Source: Methanomicrobium antiquum (GTDB lineage: Archaea > Halobacteriota > Methanomicrobia > Methanomicrobiales > Methanomicrobiaceae). From it: a stretch of 64,000 nt of DNA. This document shows, piece after piece, positions 14,412-32,219 of the stretch (position 1 is its first letter; each line of letters begins with the position of its first letter). The stretch spans positions 1,736,001-1,800,000 of the forward strand of contig NZ_CP091092.1 of assembly GCF_029633915.1 (NCBI RefSeq), in the 5' to 3' direction. The position numbers and the translations under genes were made by a program. Under the pieces are notes generated by a model. It saw only the letters and a program-made list of their open reading frames with translations, searched no databases and had not been told where the DNA came from.

Positions 14412-14789
14412 ATGACAGTTATGCCGGACGTTAAAATAAGAAGAGAACTTTTGGATACACTTTTTGCGCTTGGAAAAAGCCAGCATCCAAACGAATTCCT
14501 GGCAATTTTAAAATTTAAAAACGGAGTTATCGAAGAGCTTGAACTTGCTCCCGGAACAATTTCAGGAAGAAGCAGTGCTTCCTTTGATACATTTATGATG
14601 CCGCTTGACACAAATACTGCCGGAAGTGCCCACTCACATCCAAGCGGTGCAGTACGGCCGTCTGAAGCGGATTTGAGGTTCTTTCCAAAAACGGGAAAAT
14701 ATCATATAATTGTTGGTGCCCCATACAATGATGATACATGGAAGGCTTTTATGGCAAACGGAGAACAGATTTCAATAGAGGTGGTATAA
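14412..14789 (+). CDS. JAMM/MPN+ metalloprotease, desampylase-like
   Basis: A 125-residue stand-alone JAB1/MPN/Mov34 domain. The zinc motif is complete: an upstream Glu in HPNEFLAIL (E28), then SAHSHPSGAVRPSEADL with H-x-H-P-x7-S-x2-D. Archaeal single-domain JAMM proteins remove SAMP (ubiquitin-like) modifiers or act on related substrates, so desampylation is the likely role. It is immediately followed, in the same frame after its TAA, by the FAD synthase gene. Start could be ATG 14412 or the ATG three codons on. Confidence 0.87.
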   Translation: MTVMPDVKIRRELLDTLFALGKSQHPNEFLAILKFKNGVIEELELAPGTISGRSSASFDTFMMPLDTNTAGSAHSHPSGAVRPSEADLRFFPKTGKYHIIVGAPYNDDTWKAFMANGEQISIEVV

Positions 14790-15233
14790 ACGGTAAGAAT
14801 TGTTGCAACAGGAACATTTGATCTTTTGCATCCGGGTCATATATTTTATCTAAATGAATCAAAAAAACTTGGCGATGAACTCTGTGTTATTATCGCCCGT
14901 GATGCAAACATAAAGCATAAACCAAAGCCTGTTGTGCCTGAAAAACAGCGTCTTTTCATGATAGAGTCGCTAAAAGTTGTAGATAAAGCACTACTTGGAG
15001 ACATTCATGATATGTTTAAGCCAATTGAAGAGATTCAACCGGATATTATCACAATTGGATTCAACCAGTATTTTGATATTGAAAAACTAAAAAAACAGCT
15101 TGAAGAACGCGGCATAAGAGCCGATGTTGTAAGAGTCGGTGGCTTTGAAGGGGAAAATGAGGGATTTTGCAGTTCAAGAAGCATAATGCAGCAGATTTTA
15201 AAGAAACGCTGCAATGAAGAGAAAGAAGAATAA
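14790..15233 (+). CDS. ribL: FAD synthase (archaeal RibL), non-canonical start
   Basis: A cytidylyltransferase-fold enzyme that adenylylates FMN to FAD. The conserved start RIVATGTFDLLHPGH holds the nucleotide-binding (H/T)xGH site; the second signature is CSSRSIMQQI near the C-terminus. There is no ATG, GTG or TTG between the in-frame stop of the JAMM gene (TAA 14787-14789) and the essential GTFD motif. The codons present are ACG, GTA, AGA, ATT. A GAGGTGG ribosome binding site ends at 14784, so ACG 14790 (or GTA/ATT) must initiate, unless the base is a sequence error. The first usable TTG (14826) would delete GTFD. RibB and RibK of the same pathway are 3 kb away. Confidence 0.85.
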   Translation, partial: TVRIVATGTFDLLHPGHIFYLNESKKLGDELCVIIARDANIKHKPKPVVPEKQRLFMIESLKVVDKALLGDIHDMFKPIEEIQPDIITIGFNQYFDIEKLKKQLEERGIRADVVRVGGFEGENEGFCSSRSIMQQILKKRCNEEKEE

Positions 15234-30477: not shown

Positions 30478-31137
30478 TTGAAAGTGAATAACCCGATTAA
30501 AAAAATTCCTCTGAAAAAAATATTCATCATCTCTGCTCTTATCTTAGTCTTTTGCCTTACAGGAGCATGTGTTGAAGAAAATGGCGCAGGAATGCAATTA
30601 AATGGCCAGTCAAAAGAAAACTTATTAGGCGATGCTGGATTTAAAAGCAGTTCCTCCGCGCAGGAAGACAGTGTTTCTTTTGAAGATACATACGATTACT
30701 TTAAGCTCTCTGCAGACACTGAAAAAAACCAAAGTCAGGATACCATATATTATCTGAATAACGGAAATTTACCTGTCAGAGTTTTTCAGATAAAGGGAAT
30801 TGGAATAAATAGTGAAGGAAAAGCCGACACCTGGATCTATGGAATCAGGTACGGGAATAATGAATCACTGATTTATCAGGAGAAAAGCTGGTGGAGAGAG
30901 GCAAACTGGCCCGGATTTTTACCTGACGAAGAGATATATTTTGAAAGACTAATTACGCCTTCAGAGATAATCGCAAAAAACAAGGAAAAAATACAGCCTC
31001 TTTTTGAAAAGTCTGAGACAAACACAGTTACAATCGTTCTGAGAAATGGCAGATATTATATTACACCTGAAAATTCGGAGGATATAAGAGGAGTTGTATT
31101 TGGTTCATATTCAGGAGAAGTGATTGAAAATCCATGA
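30478..31137 (+). CDS. Lipoprotein, first gene of a pilin-like operon
   Basis: A protein of about 219 residues with a basic N-terminus and hydrophobic signal (IFIISALILVFCLTGAC). It ends in a lipobox-like LTGAC, so it is probably anchored outside the membrane. The rest is soluble, with aromatic-rich stretches (SWWREANWPGFLPDEE). The start is set at TTG 30478, preceded by GGAAAGTGAT; GTG 30484 is an alternative. Its stop overlaps the next gene by four bases, placing it in the same transcript as five pilin-like proteins. Family not recognised. Confidence 0.7.
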   Translation: MKVNNPIKKIPLKKIFIISALILVFCLTGACVEENGAGMQLNGQSKENLLGDAGFKSSSSAQEDSVSFEDTYDYFKLSADTEKNQSQDTIYYLNNGNLPVRVFQIKGIGINSEGKADTWIYGIRYGNNESLIYQEKSWWREANWPGFLPDEEIYFERLITPSEIIAKNKEKIQPLFEKSETNTVTIVLRNGRYYITPENSEDIRGVVFGSYSGEVIENP

Positions 31138-32219
31138 AAACAGACGACTCAGCAATACTCTCAGTCGATTTTCTCGCAGGATTTACGATATTTCTGGTTG
31201 CCCTTATATTTGTCATAAATATGATGCCGGGTCTCTTAATCGGCGTTCACAGTTCAGGTGTTGACTATAATGCCGTTGCATACAGAACATCGGTCATTTT
31301 GGCAGAAGATCCAGGCTCGCCTGTAAGTCCTTCATGGGAACTTTTTGATGAAGCACACAAAGATGAAATCCAAAGGCTTGGCCTCTCTGTATCATCAGAT
31401 ACGCCAAACATACTCTCTACAGAAAAAATAAGAAAATTTTTCAATATTTTTGATTCCAGACAAACTGATGATTTCAAATTTTCAATGCAGGATTACAGGG
31501 ACATGGCAATTTTTGGCGATATCCCATATTCTTTTAACATCTCATTAAAAGAAGTTTCAAAACCTGCCCTTTATACTGGAGAACCTGTCCCAAAAAGCGA
31601 ATATGGATATATGAAACGACTGGTAAAAGTCAAGCACTACAGCAGTGCTGATTTATCAGGCGGTGATTTAAACAAAACCGGGGTAAATCTGCCCTCTGTT
31701 GAACAACCACATAATTATGACTGTGGAATTTCATTTACAATGAAATACAGTGAACTCTTTGACAAAACCATATCACCGGCATACAGAATCGATCCAAAAA
31801 ACGAACCCTTAATGTTTAAAATTACTGACTTCAGTCAAAGTCTCAACTCTACAGATGTGAAATATGTAACTCTTGATAAAGTCAGATTCGTAAAAGACGG
31901 CGTTGAAATCTCTATGCCATACGAAACAATTGACAATAAAACTTATTTTTTCACAATCGATGGCGTGCAGTACAATATGACACCTTCTCCGCCGGTTGAC
32001 ATGAGTGATAAATCAGAGATCGAATTTGAGCTTATGCCAACTCTTATGTTTTCATCAGAAATTACATCAACGCTTGCACTTCAGTTCAATTTTTCATATG
32101 AATTTGAGACAAACTCCAGCAATTATCCTATTGAGGGAGAAATTCTCTACAGCTACAATTCTCCGCATATAACAGATCCTTACCTTACCGACGCTGTAAT
32201 GGAGGTCTGTATATGGTAA
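31134..32219 (+). CDS. Archaeal pilin-like secreted protein (DUF7287-like)
   Basis: A 361-residue protein with an N-terminal type IV pilin-like segment: the charged DDSAILS precedes VDFLAGFTIFLVALIFVIN and then MMPGLLIG. A long extracellular beta-rich domain follows with no other TM. It matches the pattern of the archaeal families grouped as DUF7287 (RGQ-LDF-hydrophobic), recognised by layout only. It is the second gene of a six-gene overlapping operon and the largest of the surface proteins. Confidence 0.7.
   Translation: MKTDDSAILSVDFLAGFTIFLVALIFVINMMPGLLIGVHSSGVDYNAVAYRTSVILAEDPGSPVSPSWELFDEAHKDEIQRLGLSVSSDTPNILSTEKIRKFFNIFDSRQTDDFKFSMQDYRDMAIFGDIPYSFNISLKEVSKPALYTGEPVPKSEYGYMKRLVKVKHYSSADLSGGDLNKTGVNLPSVEQPHNYDCGISFTMKYSELFDKTISPAYRIDPKNEPLMFKITDFSQSLNSTDVKYVTLDKVRFVKDGVEISMPYETIDNKTYFFTIDGVQYNMTPSPPVDMSDKSEIEFELMPTLMFSSEITSTLALQFNFSYEFETNSSNYPIEGEILYSYNSPHITDPYLTDAVMEVCIW

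Follow-up and report, generated by a model that had tools for sequence, protein, structure and literature searches.

The window analysed here is a stretch of 64,000 nucleotides from Methanomicrobium antiquum, whose genome (G000) is a single contig of 2,438,126 bases. Two genes on its forward strand directly adjoin each other in the same frame. The upstream gene (14412-14789) encodes a JAMM protein (Pfam Prok-JAB). Its longest reading begins at ATG 14412, and the alignment suggests that its start is probably ATG 14421, at the column common to its relatives. The downstream gene, the only ribL-like gene in the genome, encodes a nucleotidylyltransferase of the archaeal FAD-synthase type and spans 14790-15233 (147 codons plus stop) when read from ACG 14790-14792, the proposed start codon. 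The JAMM stop codon, TAA (14787-14789), abuts this ACG with a gap of 0, and the frame continues as ACG GTA AGA ATT GTT GCA ACA GGA ACA TTT GAT CTT TTG. The initial annotation had described ribL as a gene without an ATG, GTG or TTG start, and the window sequence bore this out: none of the three occurs in the ribL frame between the JAMM TAA and the GTFDLLHPGH motif. The earliest, TTG 14826-14828, codes for the second L of FDLLHPGH and falls inside the motif, too late for a start. The GAGGTGG that had been reported five bases ahead of the ACG is indeed found there (14778-14784), and its Shine-Dalgarno-like portion GAGGTG (14778-14783) is complementary to the 3' end of the host's own 16S rRNA, GGATCACCTCC.

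The ribL product matched Pfam PF01467 (cytidylyltransferase-like, CTP_transf_like) with 75 bits, the cut-off being 21, and the solved chain 3glv with an E-value of 3.3e-36, in an alignment that begins at 3glv residue 2. Comparison with NCBIfam gave just a general domain match above the cut-off. The HxGH nucleotidylyltransferase motif is present as part of GTFDLLHPGH, and two cysteines lie near the C-terminus (GFCSSR and KKRC), of which only the second is invariant in seven relatives. The name RibL is suggested by the HxGH motif together with a published description of archaeal RibL (PMC11423594). As far as that description goes, the Methanocaldococcus jannaschii enzyme likewise has a nucleotidylyltransferase fold with HxGH, and its ISSTxxR resembles an SSR..M stretch of the host protein (PMC11423594). 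The product probably makes FAD. The protein is under purifying selection. Between two relatives whose ribL has ATA (G023) and CTG (G024) at the start, dN was 0.058 and dS 0.67, a ratio of 0.087; the ratio was 0.12 between the host and G019, and 0.096 for a pair with ATG (G022 and G019). Values of dS between these species ranged from 0.67 to 1.8 where computable and, for many pairs, approach or exceed saturation.

A ribL gene was matched in 216 of the 232 genomes of the host's order. The start column was scored in the best-scoring 141 loci from these 216 genomes, 140 of which were parsed (L150, G091, was left out). The genes of G018, G020 and G021 were removed before the count, as each encodes an N-terminally extended protein and has, further upstream, an ATG preceded by a Shine-Dalgarno sequence, leaving 137 scorable genes; GTT in G021, considered as an unusual start, was rejected for the same features. 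The extension of these three proteins (L006, L009 and L011) is about 20-27 residues long, with its own ATG behind GGAGGTCGACTG. The start column held ATG, GTG or TTG in 131 of the 137 genes (76, 47 and 8, respectively) and another codon in six, namely ACG in the host, ATA in G005, G006, G023 and G196, and CTG in G024. The comparison of orthologous junctions, which the initial annotation had proposed as a check, thus revealed codons other than ATG, GTG and TTG recurring at the column with which the host's ACG aligns. Five of the six genes fall among the 24 members of the host's family, and G196 represents another family of the order. On a tree built from three control proteins, the unusual state involves at least three changes within the host's family, to which G196 adds one further change outside it. 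The nearest same-frame relative, G019, reads ATG GTA AGG where the host reads ACG GTA AGA. The stretch from the upstream in-frame stop to the motif contains no ATG, GTG or TTG in G000, G023, G024 or G196; G005 and G006 have a possible alternative start, a GTG three codons after the ATA.

A second collection of 80 named ribL loci, which shares some genomes with the order set, yielded 78 parsed genes (L192 and L236 were left out), all 78 with an ATG, GTG or TTG upstream of the motif. In L219 the nearest such codon is 35 codons away. In Methanosarcina-like archaea, TTG, another weak start, is a very frequent start codon of ribL (L175, L177, L178, L183, L184, L188, L190, L191, L196 and L199).

Six control genes were scored in the same 28 genomes of the host's family. 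The start column was ATG in all 27 intact thiolase genes (one broken copy, in G008, was excluded), in 28 of 28 HMG-CoA synthase genes, and in 27 of 27 and 28 of 28 genes for two ferredoxin-oxidoreductase subunits. Of 26 M24 peptidase genes, 18 have ATG or TTG at the column, and the remaining eight have an ATG between one and five codons upstream of it. JAMM has ATG at its own start column in 26 of 27 genes, the unclear L411 (G008) being left out of the 162 control starts. Starts other than ATG, GTG or TTG therefore number 5 of 24 for ribL and 0 of 162 for the controls in the host's family (Fisher p = 2.4e-5, a value that serves only as a guide, the species being related and not independent). 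With 6 of 137 ribL genes against none of the 162 controls, and with every unusual codon one base off ATG, the missing start codon of ribL is more than chance.

Of the 136 junctions measured, 118 show a 4-nt overlap between JAMM and ribL. The six junctions with unusual ribL codons have values of -4 (four of them), -1 and 0, and complementarity to the 16S end, 6-10 nt long, is retained upstream in all six genes. An overlap that reads ATAA or ATAG turns the start into ATA, the JAMM stop being TAA or TAG, and one that reads CTGA gives a CTG start. The host junction, with its gap of 0 and one extra base between Shine-Dalgarno sequence and start, differs from the usual -4 overlap. JAMM and ribL thus have the overlapping or adjoining stop and start that characterize termination-reinitiation pairs.

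A survey set 400 kb around ribL in the host against the corresponding stretches of G023 and G024, with 202-220 gene pairs in each comparison, and gave 16 rows among the matches listed. Inspection by eye retained ribL, a small methyltransferase gene and one CTG candidate in G023. The remaining genes were set aside, as they have an ATG, GTG or TTG within 3-8 codons or a poorly conserved N-terminus. The resulting figure of about 1% of genes with a near-cognate start is a lower bound and not an estimate, because the survey is blind to genes in which a usual codon soon follows the true start. The G023 candidate (C1, approximately 1323223-1324302, minus strand) is a homologue of the DUF7287 gene of the window (31134-32219); its candidate CTG lies in a CTGA context behind GTGATC, and the next ATG, GTG or TTG is about 21 codons in. 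Elsewhere in the host genome (C1, approximately 1926943-1928705, minus strand), a gene that G023 and G024 have as a single long frame is matched by two frames and looks split.

The small methyltransferase gene (Pfam MTS), located outside the window at G000:C1:1871386-1871982 (L428:1386-1982), has ATC at its start column. The same column holds ATA in G022, CTG in G007 and ATT in G018, G020 and G021, so that unusual codons are found in 6 of the 26 intact copies of the host's family and ATG, GTG or TTG in 20 (one broken copy, L498, was dropped). None of the six unusual copies has an ATG, GTG or TTG from the upstream stop as far as codon 12. They belong to six of the seven genomes of one clade, where four different codons occur. 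In another family of the order, in which the gene was matched in 60 of 61 genomes, the best 30 of the 60 matching genomes all have ATG or GTG. The distribution on the tree requires as few as two changes, or four if the codons are told apart, and is consistent with a single ancient loss and later interchange of near-cognates. The host's ATC lies approximately 80 nt past the stop of the previous gene, with GGGGTGAT five bases upstream. Gene overlap is consequently not required for an unusual start, and it was rejected as the only cause.

The features described so far were weighed against other accounts of the host's ACG. The initial annotation had left three options, initiation at the ACG (or at the nearby GTA or ATT), a readthrough fusion, or a base error. 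Initiation at the ACG gained support, as this codon occupies the conserved start column where relatives have ATA or CTG; a start at GTA or ATT turned out less likely, the fusion unsupported and the error unlikely. If the true codon were ATG and the deposited C wrong, a single T to C transition would account for the host sequence, and G019 does read ATG at this point. Such an error is nevertheless unlikely, as unusual codons stand at the same column in the single-contig genomes G023 (ATA), G024 (CTG) and G196 (ATA), and a second gene of the host, the methyltransferase, has ATC at its own start column. G024 is taken as Methanoplanus limicola; the 3,200,946-base chromosome of this species was sequenced to 834x Illumina coverage, with a reported error rate below 1 in 100,000 (PMC4149034). 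At such coverage a miscalled CTG is very improbable, and the case for an error in the host becomes weaker as well. A later start, at GTA 14793 or ATT 14799, would produce a slightly shorter RibL. The ATT is in frame and one base off ATG, and G005 and G006 have GTG at the matching column. However, the start column of the relatives corresponds to the ACG and to neither GTA nor ATT, GAGGTG ends 15 bases before the ATT as opposed to 6 before the ACG, and initiation there would, judging from the 3glv alignment, cut the first strand of the fold; we regard a later start as quite unlikely.

Readthrough of the JAMM TAA into a JAMM-RibL fusion protein is suggested by the identical, adjoining frames in the host, and is very improbable in view of the relatives. 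Only 4 of the 136 junctions have both genes in one frame; the frames differ in the other 132, including those of the other genomes with unusual codons, so a fusion is not a common feature and the shared frame is not kept across relatives as a fusion would need. Loss of the start often signals decay, and ribL might be decaying in the host with its start dispensable. The gene is, however, full length and single copy with its motifs kept, and the dN/dS ratios given above (0.12 for the host and G019, 0.087 for the species with ATA and CTG) leave very little room for this possibility. C-to-U editing of the mRNA would convert ACG to AUG, and ACG is the sole unusual codon that such a change would repair; it would do nothing for the ATA, CTG, ATC and ATT found at the same columns in the host and its relatives, which makes editing extremely improbable.

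We propose, with a probability of about 0.8, that ribL is translated from ACG 14790 by means of its Shine-Dalgarno sequence and reinitiation at the JAMM stop, the identity of the start codon being loosely held. Initiation at the ACG, one base off AUG, would most likely be carried out by the methionine initiator tRNA, and methionine would be the first residue. The location of the start would be set by GAGGTG and the adjacent JAMM stop, and ribosomes finishing JAMM at the TAA would already be in place to restart at a neighbouring, poorly matching codon. In a few genes of the host's family, which may be weakly expressed, ATG would have been replaced by ACG, ATA, ATC, ATT or CTG, with drift among these. 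All 12 unusual codons of ribL and the methyltransferase are one base from ATG, and AAG and AGG, the remaining single-base neighbours of ATG besides GTG and TTG, are absent among them; with dS near saturation, a wider spread of codons would be expected if they were unconstrained. Most simply, the initiator tRNA would act at near-cognates positioned by strong Shine-Dalgarno pairing, and at ribL also by reinitiation. Termination-reinitiation probably helps the near-cognate start of ribL and is not the general cause, given the distance between the methyltransferase ATC and the previous stop. Loss of aIF1, which is reported to destabilise non-AUG complexes (PMC6237735), was considered as a cause and rejected, as aIF1 was found in 26 of the 28 genomes of the host's family (20 of the 26 sequences look intact, and the other six were not captured by the extraction pattern). 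With this factor present, near-cognate starts are presumably weak rather than unproofed. Weak initiation may hold the level of FAD synthase down, as the initial annotation had suggested. Both genes lack an in-frame ATG, GTG or TTG before the conserved N-terminus and have an unusual codon at a conserved position in more than one species. We lean towards the view that, in this family, the Shine-Dalgarno sequence (and the upstream stop where present) marks the start and the codon keeps changing, the proteins being under purifying selection.

Gene finders accept only ATG, GTG and TTG, and genes with near-cognate starts are therefore likely to be truncated or lost in annotation. Those at risk would include an enzyme that probably makes FAD. 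If our reading is correct, this family would follow an archaeal start-codon rule that is less strict than ATG, GTG and TTG, in a way that is invisible to gene finders. The changing near-cognates would then constitute a natural experiment on whether an archaeal start is defined by Shine-Dalgarno pairing, by an adjoining stop or by the codon.

Experiments in Haloferax volcanii and E. coli have demonstrated reinitiation at overlapping gene pairs (PMC6728339, PMC10666635). JAMM-ribL resembles the pairs described there in its 4-nt overlap or adjoining stop and start, and in the placement of the Shine-Dalgarno sequence within the 3' end of the first gene. The known pairs, as they are presented in these reports, have ATG-type overlaps, whereas the JAMM-ribL overlap persists with ATA or CTG (PMC6728339, PMC10666635). 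One of them mentions rare ATT starts, but only as something that might account for certain -5 nt overlaps (PMC10666635). One study followed start-codon switches in prokaryotes, using 36 triplets of related genomes, and counted two changes to CUG and one to AUU among 61,358 ancestral AUG starts (PMC5622118). Its figures come from annotated starts, which favour ATG, GTG and TTG, and ACG and AUA are absent from its text as far as available (PMC5622118). Searches of open-licence papers brought up no archaeal case of recurrent near-cognate starts, a result that argues only weakly for their absence. Natural near-cognate starts are already known in bacteria, and what is new is that they recur, with turnover of the codon, within an archaeal family. 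The bacterial examples include infC, with ATT in E. coli and ATC in Streptomyces, and sigR of Streptomyces, whose start is GTC in 32 of 34 cases and follows a conserved AGGAGGTG site (PMC5472188). Going by that account, these are, like the genes described here, conserved genes with a start other than ATG, GTG or TTG behind a long conserved ribosome-binding site, and their starts were missed by standard gene finders (PMC5472188). The bacterial genes are IF3-repressed, with one codon largely fixed per genus (PMC5472188). In contrast, the genes of the M. antiquum family are archaeal, have aIF1 in place of IF3, and vary in start codon between related species.
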